From positions 1-56,377 of the IMG/VR virus record IMGVR_UViG_3300042465_002016: a DNA stretch of 56,377 nt. One strand, given 5' to 3'. The DNA comes from a virus. This document shows, piece by piece, positions 9,203 to 44,281 of the stretch. The position numbers and the translations under genes were made by a program. Numbering within the stretch: position 1 is the first letter of the stretch; each line of letters begins with the position of its first letter. The notes under the pieces are model-generated. The model was not told where the DNA came from. It did no database searches and saw nothing but the letters and a program-made list of their open reading frames with translations.

Positions 9203-9895
9203 CTACATGCTCTGACTGCGATTAAGTTCCATGTTGTTATGTATCCAGTGACTTGGAACCATGTATTTAAATCCCGTTTTTACAATATGAGCAGTGTGAT
9301 GATATGGTGCTGAAGAAGGAAATATAATAATGCTTCCAGCTTTAGGCTTTAGTCCAAAATCAATTTCATTCTTTGCAACAGCAACATCATAGTCAAGATC
9401 TGGAGATGGGAACTCTCCTATATTCTTATATTCTGAAAGCTTAAATGATATTTCTCCACCATCAAAATCATCGTTTAGGTACATTACCAAAGAATATCTT
9501 AGAGTCTGATCTCCATCTAGCTGATCAAAATGGGCACCCATTCCAATTCCAGCTTTGTATTTTTTAATGTTAAATACTGGAAATAGTCTTGGTTCATCAG
9601 TATCGCCAATAGAAATAGCAAAGTCTTTAGAAACATCATAAAAAGATTCCATAATTGTGTCAAATATAAAAATCATCTTAGATCTATGTGGCTCTTCCAT
9701 TGCGTTTATTTGATTCTTATCAAATGACATTGTTTTTCCATAAATAAAGTTTTTGTCATTAGATGCAGTCCAGTTTTCCCAAGGCTGTGGATTTTCTATT
9801 TTGTCTAACTCATCAATGGTTTTCATCAACTCTTGAAAGTTTTTAACACCATTTTTATAGTAGTAAACTTTTTCATGTAAAATTTCTTTATTCAT
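9203..9895 (-). CDS. 2-oxoglutarate/Fe(II) dioxygenase, prolyl-4-hydroxylase-like (1 of 6)
   Basis: 230 residues. Iron ligands His122-x-Asp124 (GAHFDQ) and His200, with Lys210 in the usual 2-oxoglutarate carboxylate position (HTAHIVKTGFKY). The YLNDDFDGGEI segment at 139-149 is typical of the P4H-like branch. Such enzymes hydroxylate proteins, small molecules or nucleobases; the substrate is not known here. One of six paralogous enzymes in 9.2-14.9 kb. It has the most divergent C-terminus of the six. Confidence 0.85.
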   Translation of the reverse strand: MNKEILHEKVYYYKNGVKNFQELMKTIDELDKIENPQPWENWTASNDKNFIYGKTMSFDKNQINAMEEPHRSKMIFIFDTIMESFYDVSKDFAISIGDTDEPRLFPVFNIKKYKAGIGMGAHFDQLDGDQTLRYSLVMYLNDDFDGGEISFKLSEYKNIGEFPSPDLDYDVAVAKNEIDFGLKPKAGSIIIFPSSAPYHHTAHIVKTGFKYMVPSHWIHNNMELNRSQSM

Positions 9896-9906
9896 TTGTT
9901 TCTCCC

Positions 9907-10566
9907 TTAGTATCTATTCTTCTCATAAAATCCCTTTTCCTTAATAAAACTAACAAGCACGTATCTTATGGGTCCTGCACCTACGTGCCTTACGCCATGA
10001 TTATACTCGTCATTTCCTGGAAAAAGAACTAATGACCCAGGCTTAGGTTTTAGTTCTAGTCCACTGTTTGCAAAAAACAATTCTCCATCAACATAGTCAT
10101 CATTTAAATACAAAATGGCAGCATACTTAATAGAAGGATCGGTATGCTGGTCTGTATGCGCCTTTAGCTCAACGCCTTCTTGCATTCTTTGAATAGTAGC
10201 AAAACCACTTACCTCTAATGAGTTATCTACCTTTTCAACTAAATCATTTAACCTATTAAATAATGCTCTTTGAAATGGATATTTTCCTATATTTAAATTT
10301 TTGTCTTGCCAGTTTTTAGTTATTTCAAATTTTCCTTCAGCAACTAAGTTTTCAACATCATCTCTACCAAATTTTTGCATACAAAAGTTTTTTAAGTTAG
10401 CGTTATATTCTATAAACCACTCTTCGTTTGGAGTTGATTTGATAACGTCAAAAATTTTATCTAACTCTTCTTTAGATAAGAAGTCTTTAACTATCAAAGC
10501 TTCACCATTAATTTCTTCAACCTGAAAGTTATTTTTTTCTAATATGTCTTTTAAGAAATTAGGCAT
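9907..10566 (-). CDS. 2-oxoglutarate/Fe(II) dioxygenase (2 of 6)
   Basis: 219 residues. His137-x-Asp139 (KAHTDQ), distal His190 (YNHGV) and Arg201 (PIRYV) complete the iron and 2-oxoglutarate site. YLNDDYVDGEL follows the metal motif. It overlaps the preceding dioxygenase gene by 8 bases, so the two are likely co-translated. The N-terminal 100 residues differ from the other five copies, implying a different substrate-recognition part. Confidence 0.86.
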   Translation of the reverse strand: MPNFLKDILEKNNFQVEEINGEALIVKDFLSKEELDKIFDVIKSTPNEEWFIEYNANLKNFCMQKFGRDDVENLVAEGKFEITKNWQDKNLNIGKYPFQRALFNRLNDLVEKVDNSLEVSGFATIQRMQEGVELKAHTDQHTDPSIKYAAILYLNDDYVDGELFFANSGLELKPKPGSLVLFPGNDEYNHGVRHVGAGPIRYVLVSFIKEKGFYEKNRY

Positions 10567-11317
10567 TATTATCTAGATCCTCTACTTTATACTTATTTCC
10601 ATCAGCATCTAGTTTCCAACCTTGTTTTAAAAGTTCTTGCCATTCAGCTCTTTCAATTTCTTGCTGTGCTCTTGTTGCTTTCATTTCTTCTGCCCAAGCA
10701 TCTCTTAATTCCTGTGGATAGTCAGACTCTTCTCTATCGTCCCAGAAAGATCCAATAGTGTATCTTACTCCACTTTCTATTAGGGATACTTCGTGCATGT
10801 TATTAAATCCCCCGTCAAAAACGGCAAGCATTCCAACTTCTGGTTTAATCTCTATGTTTTGACTTGGAAATTTAAGCAGCCCTCCTTCAAAATCATCATT
10901 AAGATATAAAAAACCTGCATAGCGGCTTCTTGTAAATGCGCCTGATTTTCCTTCAGAGTCTGTATTGTCAGAATGTATTCTTGCGTATGCGCCAGGCTCC
11001 CACTTTTGGGTGTGATATCCAATCTTAGAGATTATTTTTGAATCAAGGTTGTGGACTGAAGCAATTGCCTCTGGCATTATTTTTTCAATGTCTGAAAAAA
11101 TAGTTGGAGATAGCCCAACCTCCAATAATTCTTTATCATTATTTTGTGGCAATACTGAAGAATATGATTCATAAAATGAAATAGGCATCCAAGAAATTAC
11201 ACCATTATTTGCCTGAGCATCTAAAGCTTGAATCATTTTTTTGCAATCTTCTCTGCTTATAAAATTTTTATAAACTACTATGTCTTTTGTTATTCTATCT
11301 TTATTGTTTAAATTCAT
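10559..11317 (-). CDS. 2-oxoglutarate/Fe(II) dioxygenase (3 of 6)
   Basis: 252 residues. His115-x-Asp117 (RIHSDN), His175 (NMHEV) and Arg185 form the predicted active site; YLNDDFEGG follows. A charged C-terminal extension of about 50 residues, rich in Glu/Arg/Lys, is not shared by the other copies. Start and stop touch the neighbouring dioxygenase genes, indicating one operon. Confidence 0.87.
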   Translation of the reverse strand: MNLNNKDRITKDIVVYKNFISREDCKKMIQALDAQANNGVISWMPISFYESYSSVLPQNNDKELLEVGLSPTIFSDIEKIMPEAIASVHNLDSKIISKIGYHTQKWEPGAYARIHSDNTDSEGKSGAFTRSRYAGFLYLNDDFEGGLLKFPSQNIEIKPEVGMLAVFDGGFNNMHEVSLIESGVRYTIGSFWDDREESDYPQELRDAWAEEMKATRAQQEIERAEWQELLKQGWKLDADGNKYKVEDLDNNA

Positions 11318-11997
11318 TATGGTTGCCTATCTCCTGTGTGTTTTGTAATCTCCCAAAAAAATGGGCAAGTAAATCTTAAACCACTTTTAATCTCAGTTAC
11401 TCCATGAATATAATTTTTATCTCCTGGGAAAAAATAAGCAGCACCCTTTTTAGGTTTAAACTGTATACCTTGTAGTGGGAAGTATAACTCTCCACCTTCG
11501 TAGTCGTCATTTAAATAAAACAAACTAGAAAGATCATAGTTAGGAAAATCATTTGGAGTTCCAGCATCTGGTCCTTCGTGAAGCTCTTTGTCTGCATGAG
11601 GATTTTGAAATTGTCCTGGAAGCCATTTAACAATAGTGGTTCCAGTAGGGATAACTTCTACTTTATAAAATTCTTCAATTATTGGTCTTAGCCTTTGAAA
11701 TAGTCCAGCAATGACTGGTGAGATATTGGGATCATTTTTGTCTAAAGTTGGTTGAGTTGCCACTCTATCTTTCCAGTAATCTGAGTCATAAGTAACAGTT
11801 CCATTTTCATTTGTATGGCTTTGAGTTATGTCCCAAATTGTTAAAGATTTAGCAGACTTTTCTAAAAACTCTATCTCTTCTTTAGTCATAAAGTTTTCTA
11901 GCTCAACAATCATATCTTTGCTATCTCCAAACCAGCCAGACGGAGTTATAGAAGGTAGTCTTTTTACTACTGTATATGATTGATTATTTTGTTCCAT
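11317..11997 (-). CDS. 2-oxoglutarate/Fe(II) dioxygenase (4 of 6), leaderless start
   Basis: 226 residues from the ATG at 11997. His134-x-Asp136 (NPHADK), His198 (YIHGV) and Arg208 form the active site. An in-frame ATG at 12066 would add 23 residues and overlap the next gene by 50 bases; I prefer 11997 because TATAAT (12004-12009) lies exactly 6 bases before it, the leaderless arrangement repeated elsewhere in this phage. This would also make 11997 the head of a transcript covering the dioxygenases to its left. Confidence 0.85.
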   Translation of the reverse strand: MEQNNQSYTVVKRLPSITPSGWFGDSKDMIVELENFMTKEEIEFLEKSAKSLTIWDITQSHTNENGTVTYDSDYWKDRVATQPTLDKNDPNISPVIAGLFQRLRPIIEEFYKVEVIPTGTTIVKWLPGQFQNPHADKELHEGPDAGTPNDFPNYDLSSLFYLNDDYEGGELYFPLQGIQFKPKKGAAYFFPGDKNYIHGVTEIKSGLRFTCPFFWEITKHTGDRQP

Positions 11998-12016
11998 ATT
12001 TTTATTATACCATTTT

Positions 12017-12742
12017 CTATTCGTATGACCTTCTAGTCCAAACTTTTTTTCGATAGACTCCTCCATCTGGGATACGATATTTTTTACTATTTTCTATATT
12101 GTTATGAGTTATTTCTATTTCTGTGGGAATACTAATTTCAGATTTCCAGTCTTCCCTTAAAAATGGCAAAAGCTGAGCATACGGAGTTCCTGCTGGGATA
12201 ATTCCAGTCCAATCTTTTTGTATAAAAAATGGCATTAATCCAGGAAGGTTAACTTTATCGTTATCAACAATTCCAGAAACTGTCATAAATGGCAAATCAT
12301 AACGATTGAATGGAGATACATACAAAACACTATATCCATCTGGAACTTTAACTCCCCACTCAGGCCACCAAGCAAAGTGAGTTTTTTGGTATCCTTCAGG
12401 GTTGTGAAAGTCTTGCATTGGAGGCCTAGTTGTAACAAAATTTAAATATGCTTTATCTTCAACTCTTGCATCAATAGTTCCATCTTCAGTTATAAAAAAT
12501 TCTACATCGCATGGAGTTACCAAACTATACCCAGTAGTTAAAATATCAAGTACCGAAGGACAGGCTTTCCAGGTAGGAGTTTTTCCAAAACCTGGAGTCT
12601 CATGATACTCACCATTTCCCATCTTAAAAAATCTATCAGCTTCGCTATACCATCTAGGAATTAATTTTGATGTTGATAAAGGTTTTAATTCACTATCTTT
12701 TGTAAGCCAATTTTTATTAGCTATAAATTCAATTATTTTCAT
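12017..12742 (-). CDS. conserved unknown protein, paralogue of the next gene
   Basis: 241 residues. The centre has TGYSLVTPCDVEFFI (91-105) and, later, GIIPAGTPYAQLLPF. The same two landmarks occur in the neighbouring 12729-13451 gene. The layout (an IPRWY segment, a TGY-x3-PCDV motif, an AGTP-x-A-x3-P motif) reminds me of the DUF6065 family, but I cannot verify that. Sandwiched between dioxygenase genes and probably in their operon; could be a partner or substrate-handling protein. Confidence 0.7.
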   Translation of the reverse strand: MKIIEFIANKNWLTKDSELKPLSTSKLIPRWYSEADRFFKMGNGEYHETPGFGKTPTWKACPSVLDILTTGYSLVTPCDVEFFITEDGTIDARVEDKAYLNFVTTRPPMQDFHNPEGYQKTHFAWWPEWGVKVPDGYSVLYVSPFNRYDLPFMTVSGIVDNDKVNLPGLMPFFIQKDWTGIIPAGTPYAQLLPFLREDWKSEISIPTEIEITHNNIENSKKYRIPDGGVYRKKVWTRRSYE

Positions 12743-13451
12743 TCATGCTCCTTGTATTATCAATGACACTAAGTTTTAAATTTTTAACCTCGTGTGATCC
12801 AACTGACTCACCTTTTTCATTTACAGCATTTCTATACCAATCGGTCCATTCACCAGATTTATTAATTTCTTGTGCTGCAGTACCATATGCCGTTAATGAT
12901 TCTCCATATTCTTGCGTATAAATAAAATCAACTATTTCAATTGATTCATCTTGTAAAGAAGTTAATGATATAGGAATTATTGTTGCTAATGGAGTTCCTG
13001 CTTTAATAGTAATTTCTTTGTTTGGAGTTTTACATTTAATTGCTAATGGAAAGTCTGTATTTAAAAAAGATGTTGATATTAAAGAAGAAACAACTTCTAT
13101 ATCTGTATTAAAATAATTTTGAGGATTTATGGCAATGACGCTTGTTGTTTCATTTGTTCTTAAAATAAAACCCGTATTAAAACTAACGGTAGATTGTCCT
13201 CTTCCAGTGTATGCATAATTATTGCCTTCTAAAATTGTTACATTATTACTGCTTGTATCGTTGATACCGTTCCAAATAAAATTTATATCTACTGGGCATG
13301 ATATACTCCAACCAACAACATTAGCAGAAGTTACTGGATGACACCTATAGGCATGGCCTTGTGGAGTTTCATCCATCCAATCTCTTTTAATAGACATAGG
13401 GCTTATTGTAAATGCTAAAGGCGTTTTCTTATAACAAGTAATTATTGACAT
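12729..13451 (-). CDS. conserved unknown protein, divergent paralogue
   Basis: 240 residues sharing with the gene to its left the order GWSI-x-CPVDI-x-F (48-58) then AGTPLATIIPI. The identity otherwise looks low. It overlaps both neighbours (14 bases at the left, 1 base at the right), which indicates coupled translation with a dioxygenase. No catalytic motif is visible; beta-rich composition. Confidence 0.68.
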   Translation of the reverse strand: MSIITCYKKTPLAFTISPMSIKRDWMDETPQGHAYRCHPVTSANVVGWSISCPVDINFIWNGINDTSSNNVTILEGNNYAYTGRGQSTVSFNTGFILRTNETTSVIAINPQNYFNTDIEVVSSLISTSFLNTDFPLAIKCKTPNKEITIKAGTPLATIIPISLTSLQDESIEIVDFIYTQEYGESLTAYGTAAQEINKSGEWTDWYRNAVNEKGESVGSHEVKNLKLSVIDNTRSMNENN

Positions 13452-14125
13452 TATGACCCAGTTTCTTGATACATTTCTGGGGTATGGAATTTACTGCTAT
13501 AGTCAAGCATTGTTACTAATGAATACTTAGTCCCAGAATGAACCACTTTTGCTTTATGAGGATACATAAAATTAGATGGGAATAATACAACATCTCCAGC
13601 TTTTGGAGTATAGGTAATTCCTTGCAGCCTAAAAAATAACTCTCCGCCTTCAAAATTATCATTAATATAGGCAACTAAAGAAACAGTACAATTATATGAG
13701 AACCCATGATCATGGTGCTCCATAAAGTGATGTCCTGCCTCATACTTAATAAAATTAAATGCTTCCCAGTACTTTAAATTATAAATATTAAATCTTCTAC
13801 AATAGTCTTCTACTGCTAACTTTTGTCTGTCATAGCAATCTTGCCAAATACTCTGAAGTTTAATAGAGCTTTCTGATTTATCATTTTCAATATCTGTTTT
13901 TTTAAATTTAAAATCAACACAGTCTCTATATTCTGGCATTAGTTGTTTATATCCTACATAAGCTGGCTGCCAAGCATACCCCTCAGATCCAAGAGGTTTT
14001 AGTACATTTTCTAGTCTATTAATAATATCTAGATCTGTTGGCAAAACATCATGATAAACAAATATTCCTGGAGCAATTTCTTCATAACTACTCCAAGGCT
14101 CTAATATTTTATTTTCTGTATTCAT
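13451..14125 (-). CDS. 2-oxoglutarate/Fe(II) dioxygenase (5 of 6)
   Basis: 224 residues. His137-x-Asp139 (EHHDHG), distal His190 (YPHKAKV) and Lys200 (GTKYS). It shares DAV/DCV-DFKFK, EAFNF-x-KYE and SYNCTVS with the next gene, so copies 5 and 6 are a recent pair, distinct from copies 1-4. The 2-oxoglutarate-binding residue is Lys rather than Arg in this pair. Confidence 0.87.
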   Translation of the reverse strand: MNTENKILEPWSSYEEIAPGIFVYHDVLPTDLDIINRLENVLKPLGSEGYAWQPAYVGYKQLMPEYRDCVDFKFKKTDIENDKSESSIKLQSIWQDCYDRQKLAVEDYCRRFNIYNLKYWEAFNFIKYEAGHHFMEHHDHGFSYNCTVSLVAYINDNFEGGELFFRLQGITYTPKAGDVVLFPSNFMYPHKAKVVHSGTKYSLVTMLDYSSKFHTPEMYQETGS

Positions 14126-14138
14126 ATAATCTCCTATT

Positions 14139-14852
14139 TTAATTTCTTGTGTGGCCTAAAAGATTTATATCCGTCATAACAACAACGCAATATTTTGTTC
14201 CTGTTTTCATTGGCAAAGAGGCGTGTTCATAAATATAGTTTGAAGGAAAAATAGCTATATCACCAACTTTTGGAGTATAAACAAAATTATCTAATCTTGG
14301 AAATTTAATTTCTCCTCCTTCATAATCATCATTAATATATATTACTGCAGAAACTGTACAGTTATAAGAAGGGCCATGATCTGCATGAATATTGAAATGA
14401 GTTCCTTCACCTTCATACTTAACAAAATTAAATGCTTCATAATATGTAACATCTATGCCCCAGTAATGTGCATAATCATCTACACACATTTTTAATTTTT
14501 GATATATCTCTTCATGGAGATCAATTAGCTCGCCATTACTTTTATCTCTTGGTCCAAGATTTTCTTGCTTGTATTTAAAATCTACAGCATCTCTTGCTTT
14601 TTTAATTGGAACATCAGAGTTTGTTACTTGTGCTTCAGACCATTTATATTTACTATTGCCAGACAAGTTGTACTCAAGTGTATCAATATATCTTTGTGAA
14701 TCATCTTTAGAAAAAACATTATGATAAATGTTTAATCCTAGTCCTGGATTACTAATTGAAATATTACTTTGGGGCATTAATCTTTTAATTCTTGTTGAAA
14801 CTGTTTCAGATCTATCTTTAGTAAACCAAGTATTTTCATTTTCATTATACAT
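14139..14852 (-). CDS. 2-oxoglutarate/Fe(II) dioxygenase (6 of 6)
   Basis: 237 residues. His156-x-Asp158 (NIHADHG), His210 (YEHAS) and Lys220 (GTKYC). Paralogue of the preceding gene with a 20-residue longer N-terminus. A GGGGA ribosome site lies 10 bases before the ATG and TATAAT about 40 bases further upstream (minus strand), so it probably heads the dioxygenase operon. Confidence 0.87.
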   Translation of the reverse strand: MYNENENTWFTKDRSETVSTRIKRLMPQSNISISNPGLGLNIYHNVFSKDDSQRYIDTLEYNLSGNSKYKWSEAQVTNSDVPIKKARDAVDFKYKQENLGPRDKSNGELIDLHEEIYQKLKMCVDDYAHYWGIDVTYYEAFNFVKYEGEGTHFNIHADHGPSYNCTVSAVIYINDDYEGGEIKFPRLDNFVYTPKVGDIAIFPSNYIYEHASLPMKTGTKYCVVVMTDINLLGHTRN

Positions 14853-15206: not shown

Positions 15207-16151
15207 TTAAGGCCAGTAATATAATCCATCGCCATTACTCATGCAAGGAACATTGCTTGATTGGGTATATGTTGCACCGCTAAAGCCAGAACCTGTAGTG
15301 CAACAATAGGGGCTAGGACATCCCCCCGAATAGGCTGGACTCATTCTGCAAAATCTAGTTGAGGTATTCCAATTACAAAATGTTCCATTATATGATAAAA
15401 CTGAATTAGCAAGGCAACCTACCGAGCTGTTCCAGCTTCCACAATACCAAGTTTGTGCTACAAAGTATGGGAAGAATGGGAAAAAGGGTGGGAAAAATGG
15501 TGGAAAGAATGGGGATAACGTAGTAATAGATCCAGATGCAGCAGAAGCAATGCTTGTGCCGTTAGCGTTTGTTGCGGTAATTGTATAAGTCTGAGAAGTG
15601 CCTGCGGTATCAGCAATAGTAATTGGAGAAGTAGCACCTGTACCAGTTGTAGCGTCGCTGCCAGTTACTGTGTAAGAGCTAATTGCTTTTCCACCAGTAG
15701 CTGGTGCTGAGAAAGCAATAGAGTTTTGATTTACACCAGCTGTTGCAGTTGGGGCAGACATAGTTGCAGGAACTGTTGTTACAGTAACTGAAGAAGATGT
15801 TGTTCCTGTTGCAGTCCCTGAAGCGTTAGACGCTCTAACTAAAAATGTGTATGCTGTATTTGAGGCAAGCCCTTCAAAAGTATATGAAGCGGTTGCGCTA
15901 CCTGTTGTAACAGTATAAGTAGATGGTGTACTTGTAATAGTATAAGATGTTGCTGCTGGAGACAAAGCTGGAAGGGTCCATGCAAGGCTTGCAGCGGCTC
16001 CTGTGCCTGCTGCAGAAGCTGTTGAGGTGGTATTTGCTGTTGCCAAATAAGGACGAGACGTAGCAACATCGCTAGCAGTTAAACTTGTTACATTTAATGG
16101 CTCTAAAAAGTCATTAGAGGCTGACGAACGTTTTCCAGTCTTTTTAGCCAT
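15207..16151 (-). CDS. FN3-repeat adhesin with FFPP hinge and Cys-rich tip (twin A)
   Basis: 314 residues. A conserved N-terminal anchor (about 1-40), two fibronectin type III-like domains (about 40-130 and 130-215), then a Pro/Phe hinge of FFPP repeats (about 217-232) and a tip of about 80 residues rich in Cys, Trp, Ser and Tyr. The first 215 residues are almost the same as in the gene immediately upstream, but the tips are unrelated. This suggests a tail-fibre or receptor-binding protein with an exchangeable tip. Virion location is inferred from FN3 content and neighbours. Confidence 0.75.
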   Translation of the reverse strand: MAKKTGKRSSASNDFLEPLNVTSLTASDVATSRPYLATANTTSTASAAGTGAAASLAWTLPALSPAATSYTITSTPSTYTVTTGSATASYTFEGLASNTAYTFLVRASNASGTATGTTSSSVTVTTVPATMSAPTATAGVNQNSIAFSAPATGGKAISSYTVTGSDATTGTGATSPITIADTAGTSQTYTITATNANGTSIASAASGSITTLSPFFPPFFPPFFPFFPYFVAQTWYCGSWNSSVGCLANSVLSYNGTFCNWNTSTRFCRMSPAYSGGCPSPYCCTTGSGFSGATYTQSSNVPCMSNGDGLYYWP

Positions 16152-16186: not shown

Positions 16187-17029
16187 CTATTGTCCATAAC
16201 ATTTTCCACTAAATTGACCACAATTATTAAGCCACCCCCACCTTTGAGTATTTTGCTGATAGGTTGTAAAACCGCACTGAGCAATTGGATATGTTAAAGT
16301 GTAATAAAATCTATCTTGATCGTTGCTTGCTACTACGCAAAAGTATGGAAAGAATGGAAAGAACGGTGGAAAGAAAGGTGGAAAGAAAGGAGATAATGTA
16401 GTAATTGAGCCAGATGCAGCAGAAGCAATAGATGCACCATTAGCATTAGTTGCTCGAACTGTATAAGTCTGTGATGTTCCTGCAGTATCAGCAATAATAA
16501 TTGGAGAAGTAGCTCCAGTGCCTGATGTACCATCGGAACCATTTACAGTATATGAACTAATTGCTTTTCCACCAGTAGCTGGTGCTGAGAAAGCAATAGA
16601 GTTTTGATTTGCTCCAGCAGTTGGAGTTGGTGCAGACATTGTGGCTGGAACTGTTGTTACTGTAACAGAACTTGAAGTTGTGCCTGTTGCAGTCCCTGCA
16701 GCATTAGATGCTCTAACTAAAAATGTATACGCTGTATTTGAAGCAAGTCCTTCAAAAGTATAAGAAGCAGTTGCGCTGCCTGTTGTTACGGTATATGTAC
16801 TTGGGGTTGTTGTAATAGTATAAGATGTTGCTGCTGGAGATAATGCTGGAAGGGTCCATGCAAGGCTTGCAGCGGCTCCTGTGCCTGCTGCTGAGGCTGT
16901 TGAGGTAGTATTTGCTGTTGCCAAATAAGGACGAGATGTGCCAACGTCTGAGGCTGTTAGGCTTGTTACATTTAATGGCTCTAAAAAGTCATTAGAGGCT
17001 GACGAACGTTTTCCAGTCTTTTTAGCCAT
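16187..17029 (-). CDS. FN3-repeat adhesin with FFPP hinge and different tip (twin B)
   Basis: 280 residues with the same anchor, two FN3 domains and FFPP hinge as twin A, followed by a different 50-residue tip with three or four Cys and many aromatic residues. A stretch of about 75 bases around the start codons of both twins is nearly identical in DNA, so the duplication is recent or maintained by gene conversion. Likely a tail adhesin. Confidence 0.75.
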   Translation of the reverse strand: MAKKTGKRSSASNDFLEPLNVTSLTASDVGTSRPYLATANTTSTASAAGTGAAASLAWTLPALSPAATSYTITTTPSTYTVTTGSATASYTFEGLASNTAYTFLVRASNAAGTATGTTSSSVTVTTVPATMSAPTPTAGANQNSIAFSAPATGGKAISSYTVNGSDGTSGTGATSPIIIADTAGTSQTYTVRATNANGASIASAASGSITTLSPFFPPFFPPFFPFFPYFCVVASNDQDRFYYTLTYPIAQCGFTTYQQNTQRWGWLNNCGQFSGKCYGQ

Positions 17030-34957: not shown

Positions 34958-34977
34958 TTATCCACAGATTATCCACA
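34958..34977 (+). promoter_or_regulatory. two direct DnaA boxes
   Basis: TTATCCACA at 34958-34966 and again at 34969-34977, 11 bases apart, each an exact DnaA-box consensus. They sit just after CCCGGG and before the 35046 promoter. Confidence 0.6.
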
Positions 34978-42788: not shown

Positions 42789-42798
42789 TTTTTAGCTA

Positions 42799-42836
42799 CC
42801 TGGTGTGGCCCTTCGGGGCCCCCCGGGATTTTTTTT
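42799..42836 (+). terminator. strong UUCG terminator
   Basis: GGCCC-TTCG-GGGCC (42807-42820), extended by CCTGG/CCGGG pairing (42799-42803 with 42823-42827), then eight T (42829-42836). Closes the operon and isolates the origin-like region. Confidence 0.88.
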
Positions 42837-43010
42837 GCAAATTTATCAAACCATCAAACCTTAAAACCCTATTACGAACCAAACCTTATTTTTCCCAGAA
42901 CTTTATTACGATAGACAAATAATTTTCCCCAATCATAGACAAACCTTCAAACCAGCTATAAAGGTTTTGTATTGTATCTTATACTACTGACATTACGAAC
43001 TGACTTATTT

Positions 43011-43065
43011 ATCCCCCGCCCCAGAAATGACTGCCAGGATAGCTACACATCCCGCAGCGGGGGAT
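43011..43065. repeat. 9-bp perfect inverted repeat with nested stem
   Basis: ATCCCCCGC (43011-43019) and GCGGGGGAT (43057-43065) pair perfectly. Inside, CTGC and GGAT near 43031-43040 can pair with ATCC and GCAG near 43049-43057, making a long imperfect stem. No T-run follows, so not a standard terminator. Confidence 0.6.
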
Positions 43066-43219
43066 CAAAAGATATACCAAATTCCCTAGTATAAAAGACA
43101 TTACGAATAACAAACCTTTTTCCCTGGTTTCTAGATATTTATAAAACCTTTCTATTATTTTTTATTAATTAATTGGACATTTCGAGCAATTTTGTATAGG
43201 GTTTTTAGGCTATAAAGGT

Positions 43220-43248
43220 TTGACAAATAGAGGTTTGAATGGTATACT
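43220..43248 (+). promoter_or_regulatory. consensus promoter with no gene downstream
   Basis: TTGACA (43220-43225), 17 bases, TATACT (43243-43248). No supported gene starts in the following 240 bases; the transcript would run toward the DnaA boxes. Confidence 0.68.
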
Positions 43249-43410
43249 CCACAGCTGGGAAGGGAAGGTTTGACAAAGGAAAGGTTTTGTGGTAGGGTTT
43301 TAAAACGTCCTGGACATTACGAACCCTTCTGTCTAAATGCTCCATACTCCACTTCCCTCCCTTTTCCTCCACTCAAAGATAAATCTAAAAAATATCAGTA
43401 AGATCTATCC

Positions 43411-43473
43411 TGTGGATAACTACAGTAAACCTGTGGATAACTTTACCAAACCATGCCTTCTCCCTGTGGATAA
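43411..43473. promoter_or_regulatory. three DnaA boxes
   Basis: TGTGGATAA (reverse complement of TTATCCACA) at 43411-43419, 43432-43440 and 43465-43473, each within CTGTGGATAACT except for one flanking base difference. Direct orientation, spacing 21 and 33 bases (two and three helical turns). Confidence 0.75.
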
Positions 43474-43493
43474 CTCTATGATATGATGGACAT

Positions 43494-43580
43494 ATGAAAC
43501 CTTTATTAGTCATTTTGCTTGGTCTATTTATCTTTGTAAACTACATGGCATATCTCCAACAAATCCGTATGACCTCATAA
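43494..43580 (+). CDS. 28-residue membrane peptide, leaderless
   Basis: MKPLLVILLGLFIFVNYMAYL then a polar tail. TATGAT is exactly 6 bases before the ATG. Plausible, small. Confidence 0.45.
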   Translation: MKPLLVILLGLFIFVNYMAYLQQIRMTS

Positions 43581-43583
43581 ACA

Positions 43584-43622
43584 TTACGATAGATCAAATC
43601 TTTTCCCCAATCATGGTATGAT
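43584..43622 (+). promoter_or_regulatory. TTACG-type leaderless promoter
   Basis: TTACG (43584), TTTTCCCCAA, TATGAT (43617-43622); TTACG-to--10 distance 33. ATG follows after 6 bases. The -35 itself is weak. Confidence 0.6.
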
Positions 43623-43628
43623 ATCTAT

Positions 43629-43748
43629 ATGAAAAATACATATAAGTGTCCAGAATGTGCTACCTCTATTGTCATTACAACCAAGGTACATGATCTACCA
43701 GAGTCTATCATCTGTCCTTGTGATGCTGTAATGCCATTAAAACCTTAG
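43629..43748 (+). CDS. 39-residue zinc-ribbon protein, leaderless
   Basis: MKNTYKCPECATSIVI then ICPCDAV: CxxC and CxC. ATG 6 bases after TATGAT. Resembles the N-terminal half of the 39715 protein in Cys layout. Confidence 0.6.
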   Translation: MKNTYKCPECATSIVITTKVHDLPESIICPCDAVMPLKP

Positions 43749-43825
43749 CCTTTACCTAACAAACCTTAGCCTTTACCTAATTTGTCAGGGTATACAATCA
43801 TCTGGCTGTGTGGTATCATGGATAT

Positions 43826-43957
43826 ATGGAAATCTTAACCGAACAATGTTATTACTGCGATAAGCCAGCAGAGTATAATGACATTGTTGTAGAAGACCTA
43901 GTATATTCTGTCTCTGGCGTATGTAAGAAACATCTTAGAATGGGGTTATCATCATGA
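43826..43957 (+). CDS. 43-residue Cys protein, leaderless
   Basis: MEILTEQCYYCDKPAEYND, then VCKKHLRMG: CxxC and CxxH, a treble-clef-like pattern. TATCAT is 6 bases before the ATG. It shares four bases (ATGA) with the next gene. Confidence 0.6.
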   Translation: MEILTEQCYYCDKPAEYNDIVVEDLVYSVSGVCKKHLRMGLSS

Positions 43958-44037
43958 ATGACTATAGACCTATAAGTATCTTAGCTTTTATACTTGTTAT
44001 AGCGTTAACGGGAGTTGTTTTCTTTTACCCCGCATAA
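43954..44037 (+). CDS. 27-residue membrane peptide
   Basis: MNDYRP followed by one hydrophobic helix (ISILAFILVIALTGVVFF). ATGA overlap with the previous gene supports translation. Confidence 0.5.
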   Translation: MNDYRPISILAFILVIALTGVVFFYPA

Positions 44038-44046
44038 ATAGGGTGC

Positions 44047-44075
44047 TTGACATACCCTTTGAAATTTGCTACACT
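44047..44075 (+). promoter_or_regulatory. consensus promoter
   Basis: TTGACA (44047-44052), 17 bases, TACACT (44070-44075) with TG before the -10. Serves 44097, which has AAGGAG. Confidence 0.72.
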
Positions 44076-44096
44076 TAGATTGAAAAGGAGAAACAC

Positions 44097-44246
44097 ATGA
44101 CAACACAAATGATACATGAACTAATGCAAGCAATGTTTGACAACAATAAGTCAGGCGGACTTGATTATGTTGAAAGCAACACGGTCAAAGAGATAATCCA
44201 GGGATACTTCCCAAAGGCTGTTGAGTCTTTCGAACCTGCTTACTAA
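44097..44246 (+). CDS. 49-residue early protein
   Basis: MTTQMIHELMQAMFDNNKSG then VKEIIQGYFPKAV. Helical; GGAG 8 bases before the ATG. No family recognised. A hairpin of the 11-base-loop family follows. Confidence 0.66.
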   Translation: MTTQMIHELMQAMFDNNKSGGLDYVESNTVKEIIQGYFPKAVESFEPAY

Positions 44247-44258
44247 TATAAACCCTCC

Positions 44259-44281
44259 TAGACATGAGTATAAACTGTCTA
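44259..44281 (+). repeat. 11-base-loop hairpin, copy 6 (different stem)
   Basis: TAGACA (44259-44264), loop ending ATAAAC (44265-44275), TGTCTA (44276-44281). The stem sequence differs from the other copies but pairs perfectly, which is the covariation expected of a functional RNA stem. Confidence 0.6.

Follow-up and report, generated by a model that had tools for sequence, protein, structure and literature searches.

Analysis of a 56,377-nucleotide viral DNA fragment from IMG/VR (record IMGVR_UViG_3300042465_002016, hereafter the window), originating from a large lake-water phage, revealed a conserved non-coding element of ~150 bp in which DnaA-type boxes adjoin a phased A/T tract. On balance, we consider it probable that a large actinophage, itself probably virulent, uses this module as a host-DnaA-dependent replication origin, situated at a probable terminal-repeat boundary. 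Computation establishes the boxes and their conservation, a mutation spectrum like that of DnaA sites, the phased tract and, in Streptomyces relatives, a fixed distance to the genome end; no phage DnaA was detected. Against an origin stand the GC skew, a 9-bp insertion in the window copy, and the phage Coruscant, which lacks the boxes. Lytic origins of large virulent actinophages appear to be undefined, and no report of DnaA boxes in these actinophages was found in the literature searched. The design is common to widespread uncultured freshwater phages and culturable Streptomyces phages, which makes the element a definite candidate open to laboratory testing.

Boxes and surroundings in the window

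The sequence TGTGGATAA occurs exactly, on the + strand, at 43411, 43432 and 43465, with spacings of 21 and 33 bases, just as an earlier note on this DNA had described its three perfect DnaA boxes (Table 1). Five exact copies are found on both strands of the window versus 0.71 expected from base composition, and three copies on one strand within 63 bp would be expected ~4e-8 times in the window, ruling out a chance origin of the boxes. The AT-rich sequence beside the boxes and the promoter pointing toward them, both part of the same description, are present as well. The boxes were also said to occupy the longest gene-free stretch; this is true of 42789-44278 when only ORFs of at least 60 aa are counted, and the strictly gene-free part is 42789-43493 (705 bp), with short leaderless ORFs starting at 43494 and ~43630. 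A "big inverted repeat" proved weak, the long one comprising 38 nt at 71% and the good one having 12-nt arms at 43008 and 43057, and no Rfam match to a known RNA was obtained in the region.

Repeated TTACG elements are indeed present: ATTACGA occurs 14 times in the window versus 5.2 expected (0 of 100 shuffles reach 14), and six copies within 42871-43589 are all on the + strand. However, they appear to form an array of their own, which in cultured relatives is associated with the physical end of the genome.

Table 1. Sequence features of the module and its surroundings in the window
Feature	Position	Strand	Basis or remark
Intrinsic terminator closing the upstream genes	42812..42835	+	sequence
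Forward ATTACGA array (42871, 42905, 42992, 43100)	42871..43106	+	enrichment; single orientation in relatives
Promoter TTGACA-17-TATACT directed at the boxes	43220..43248	+	sequence; kept in close relatives
CATTACGA, equivalent to CATTAC at the genome end in Streptomyces phages	43315..43322	+	distance to box 1; end position in Streptomyces phages
CTCCACT-type repeats	43340..43373	+	kept in alignments
A/T-rich tract with A every third base, DnaA-trio-like, candidate unwinding element	43381..43410	+	77% A+T; phased A kept in 92 relatives
DnaA-type box 1 (TGTGGATAA)	43411..43419	+	exact match
DnaA-type box 2 (TGTGGATAA)	43432..43440	+	exact match; 12 bases after box 1
DnaA-type box 3 (TGTGGATAA)	43465..43473	+	exact match; promoter spacer position
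-10 hexamer TATGAT, promoter of leaderless ORF 43494-43580 (28 aa)	43482..43487	+	sequence
Second tandem pair of exact boxes (34958-34966 and 34969-34977)	34958..34977	-	8.4 kb upstream

Conservation of the module in related phages

The first relatives were fetched through neighbouring proteins and already had the same non-coding region. A search with the core pattern matched at least 120 viral stretches. Non-redundant copies numbered 92-104 depending on the cut-off, and the module is present in at least 92 non-redundant IMG/VR contigs. Throughout the 92-104 copies the order is constant: a G/T-rich stretch, CATTACG, CTCCACT repeats, the A/T tract, CAGTAA(G/C)AT, box 1 and box 2; the sequences compared are related, and their conserved columns are not independent. 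Box 1 is TGTGGATAA in 94/95 non-redundant relatives, a figure in part imposed by the search pattern, and is separated from box 2 by 2-3 bp in 84/95. The distance from TTACG/CATTACG to box 1 is 92-97 bp in 90/92 relatives, and the TTACGA sites upstream of the core are nearly all forward. Upstream of the element, a forward promoter was detected in 79/92 relatives, mostly 180-240 bp before box 1, compared with 31 carrying a reverse promoter and 17 in shuffles. Alignment shows the window copy to be slightly atypical, with 9 bp inserted between boxes 1 and 2 and one extra C before box 1.

Direct searching revealed no DNA homology of the region to GenBank phages. Ordinary host sequence was rejected as a source, the core being found in only two cellular contigs, titled Chitinophagaceae and Gammaproteobacteria, that are probably misbinned phage.

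Mutation spectrum of the boxes and the phased A/T tract

If the boxes are bound by DnaA, their variants should keep the preferences of DnaA. Among second boxes differing from TGTGGATAA, 11/15 changes are at position 5, and in boxes further downstream 23/25 changes are at position 5 or 7, versus 72/236 in a whole-locus control (p = 1.8e-9). Positions 5 and 7 are the loose positions of the cellular DnaA box consensus TTWTNCACA (PMC5835720). The commonest variant, TGTGTATAA (TTATACACA), recurs in Streptomyces phages.

Upstream of box 1, A returns with a three-base period between -7 and -25. Where the search pattern imposes no base, A reaches a frequency of 0.73-0.93 in phase and is for the most part far less frequent out of phase (the exception being -21, at 0.88), and NAN runs have a mean of 6.1 compared with 2.8 in shuffles, with an offset of 5 in 72/92 copies. 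Relative to the box, the tract occupies the side that it also takes in E. coli oriC, where the box compared is R1, and the polarity is therefore the same. The rule for the basal unwinding system of bacterial origins calls for tandem boxes no more than 3 bp apart and, on the appropriate strand, a run of three or more NAN trinucleotides no further than 16 bp from the box (PMC8287927). Most relatives agree with this rule in box consensus, box gap and NAN run, while the window copy, with its 12-bp gap, departs from it in the box gap.

The earlier note regarded the use of host DnaA as unusual for a large lytic phage. For boxes as such this does not hold, tandem pairs of TGTGGATAA being found in many unrelated viral contigs, but the phased tract is absent there. 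Pairs of the form TGTGGATAA-3-TGTGGATAA are common in such contigs (L274-L345). At 71 tandem box pairs picked in viral contigs regardless of the core, the phased tract is absent except in family members (NAN mean 2.0, shuffle-like), which rules out the trios as a general trait of viral tandem boxes.

Position relative to the genome end

The link to Streptomyces phages was reached through DUF932 synteny. In phage Evy, the non-coding gap after the DUF932 gene holds six TTACGA sites and TTATCCACA-13-TGTGGATAA. Both boxes are kept in nine such Streptomyces phages with differing flanks, and in one of the nine, Paradiddles, the second box is interrupted. The direct terminal repeat (11-12 kb) starts between the C and ATTAC of CATTAC, exactly 63 bp from the box, in 6/6 Samistivirus genomes tested, although some of the deposited ends may have been assigned by homology. 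Inside the repeat, the TTACGA array is located at about -219, -290, -441, -635 and -670.

The ends of Coruscant were found by PhageTerm from a coverage step at single-base positions (PMC7650747). In this phage (L271/L272) the end is at the same motif and is accompanied by the same kind of TTACGA array, and no boxes are found there. Boxes and genome end can thus be separated, and use of the boxes at this site is not universal among relatives. What accompanies the DNA end is CATTAC with the array, the boxes being a neighbouring, separable component. The element was likewise ruled out for the satellite MulchRoom (L273), a parasite of a box-bearing helper, whose whole genome contains no DnaA boxes.

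Motif, order and spacing in the freshwater phages agree with a Stanwilliamsviridae-type end, the physical end being known in the Streptomyces phages only, and by this comparison the freshwater genomes would end at CATTACG. Freshwater contig ends do cluster at or just inside CATTACG, 7/149 falling within 35-97 bp of box 1 and none from 98 to 182, a clustering that k-mers shared between related phages could also cause. One long relative (G006) has identical ends of 8,517 bp, giving a unit of 116,023 bp, and its contig ends lie elsewhere than CATTACG.

These observations raise the question of whether the module is primarily a packaging or DNA-end site, at which terminase would recognise the TTACGA array and cut at CATTAC while DnaA or a different bending protein would attach to the TGTGGATAA boxes in an accessory role, like IHF at lambda cos. 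The 63-bp distance in the Streptomyces phages, the one-way array at constant places inside the repeat, the constant 92-97 bp spacing in freshwater phages and the clustering of contig ends favour such a site. Conversely, Coruscant keeps the end site and array without boxes, cutting has no need of a phased A/T tract, further boxes are found in promoters and, as clusters, at distances of kilobases, and homology may have guided the placing of some deposited ends. We consider a primarily packaging role rather doubtful.

Further exact TGTGGATAA clusters are located 5-13 kb upstream of the core (G001 at 71950, 77235 and 78394; G006 at 112206-112329; G010 at 16942-16999), often close to TCGTAA and GGCGTGTCG motifs. 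As the terminal repeats of the Streptomyces relatives are roughly as long as this distance, the second clusters may mark the other end of the repeat.

Replication genes and host

The window carries genes for WhiB, a B12-type ribonucleotide reductase, Gp88 and DUF932, and the best relatives of its DUF932 protein are in Streptomyces phages of the family Stanwilliamsviridae; on the basis of these genes, the phage probably infects actinobacteria. DnaB is encoded in 13/13 related phage records and DnaE in 5/5 tested, and DNA polymerase A was not found. A phage-encoded DnaA was sought and rejected, neither a DnaA C-terminal nor an AAA domain being detected in the 13 records at E <= 0.1 with control genomes positive. 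With a bacterial-type replisome that lacks DnaA, a phage could be expected to borrow that of its host, and host DnaA thus probably binds the boxes and opens the DNA.

Alternatively, an initiator of an unrecognised family encoded by the phage might share the specificity of DnaA and bind the boxes, or bind TTACGA as iterons, so that the origin would be independent of host DnaA. The TTACGA sites do form a repeated array, and Streptomyces phages retain exact TTATCCACA; the DnaA box of Streptomyces itself is usually TTGTCCACA. Such an initiator is nevertheless very improbable, given the negative domain search, a box mutation spectrum that fits cellular DnaA, and the persistence of the TTACGA array at the DNA end of Coruscant without boxes. 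Among the larger neighbouring ORFs, which were scanned, no Pfam initiator match was found.

Boxes in promoters

There is overlap between box 3 and the promoter that serves the ORF at 43494: TATGAT lies 17 bases after the start of the box, and the -35 is poor. In 15 distinct contexts in relatives, a downstream box similarly lies inside the promoter of a leaderless gene, with TTGACA directly before the box and the -10 hexamer 17-18 bases after its start. Since box 3 holds the same promoter place as the boxes in these contexts, DnaA may also modulate an early promoter through it. The composite promoters have the form TTGACA-TGTGGATAA-N8-TATNNT, with the box as spacer (L029 at 3276, L036 at 6700, L178 at 2927, L200 and 11 other contexts).

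It could be argued from these promoter boxes, and from the extra box clusters elsewhere in the genomes, that the boxes as a whole serve transcription control of early leaderless genes by DnaA in the promoter spacer, or titration, many phage copies soaking up host DnaA in a datA-like manner and stopping host initiation. Both leave unexplained why the boxes are 2-3 bp apart, why the A/T tract is phased and why CATTAC lies at a fixed distance, and we regard this explanation as distinctly unlikely.

GC skew

The GC-skew check over the genome gave no support for bidirectional initiation at the element. The skew tracks gene direction and shows no change of sign where the element lies. After correction for genes, the sign of the third-position skew is opposite to the one that bidirectional forks starting there would leave. 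In same-direction genes of four long relatives (G001, G002, G004 and G006), third-position skew changes sign ~70-80 kb downstream of the core, for which gene class or a second origin are possible causes. Either replication is not of a simple bidirectional theta type or the skew reflects gene classes. GC skew was consequently discarded as an origin marker, as it follows gene direction and, once corrected, points elsewhere or reflects gene classes.

Proposed mechanism

The proposal of a candidate origin with DnaA boxes thus stands in modified form: conservation, box mutation spectrum, phased A/T tract and the failure to find a phage DnaA favour it, whereas the TTACG elements look like a separate genome-end array, the third box is a promoter element and the skew is unsupportive. 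From these features we infer DnaA binding, unwinding and helicase loading at the element. Host DnaA would bind the box pair, extend over the phased A/T tract and open it, and DnaB would be loaded at the opened tract, possibly aided by transcription from the conserved promoter pointing into the element. As the origin would adjoin the long terminal repeat, that repeat would be replicated by one of the first forks.

A bolder version, which we hold to be unlikely as it stands, is a terminal-repeat duplication origin coupling replication to packaging in long-repeat actinophages: host DnaA would initiate DNA synthesis at the repeat's edge, and the single copy of the repeat that each concatemer unit contains would thereby be copied ahead of cutting by terminase. 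The fixed place of the module beside the terminal repeat also makes testable an old question, namely by what means long direct repeats are duplicated in phages before their DNA is packaged.

Comparison with known systems

In phage P1 oriR and similar plasmid-type origins, host DnaA boxes lie beside an A/T-rich segment, as the DnaA-type boxes do here. The initiator in P1 is the phage's own RepA, and iterons adjoin repA, whereas no initiator gene was recognised in the phage module. The likeness to the basal unwinding system of bacterial oriC extends to the tandem boxes no more than 3 bp apart in most relatives, a 5-6 base spacer, the NAN run and the polarity of E. coli oriC; in contrast to bacterial origins, the phage module adjoins a genome-end site, carries TTACGA sites in a one-way array and lacks a neighbouring dnaA gene, and its trios are degenerate rather than GAT repeats (PMC8287927). 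With the direct-terminal-repeat end of Stanwilliamsviridae (Evy, Jay2Jay, EGole and Coruscant) it shares the CATTAC end motif, the forward TTACGA array and the place after the DUF932 gene, and in Samistivirus also the boxes beside the end (PMC7650747). It differs in that the freshwater direct-repeat boxes lie about one helical turn further from CATTAC, at ends deduced by comparison, and in that Coruscant lacks boxes. An origin has also been predicted by Ori-Finder in Pseudomonas phage PseuGes_254 from DnaA boxes and an A/T-rich region, in that case for a single genome and with no fixed link to the genome end described (PMC11512268).

Other observations in the window

Near structural genes, the - strand at 9203-14852 carries about six paralogous genes side by side that, judged by eye, resemble 2-oxoglutarate/Fe(II) (prolyl-4-hydroxylase-like) oxygenases. 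Lastly, the adjacent proteins encoded at 15207-16151 and 16187-17029 (- strand) have nearly identical N-terminal parts and a FFPPFFPPFFPFFPYF stretch but differ at their C-terminal ends, in the manner of tip proteins that switch or diversify.
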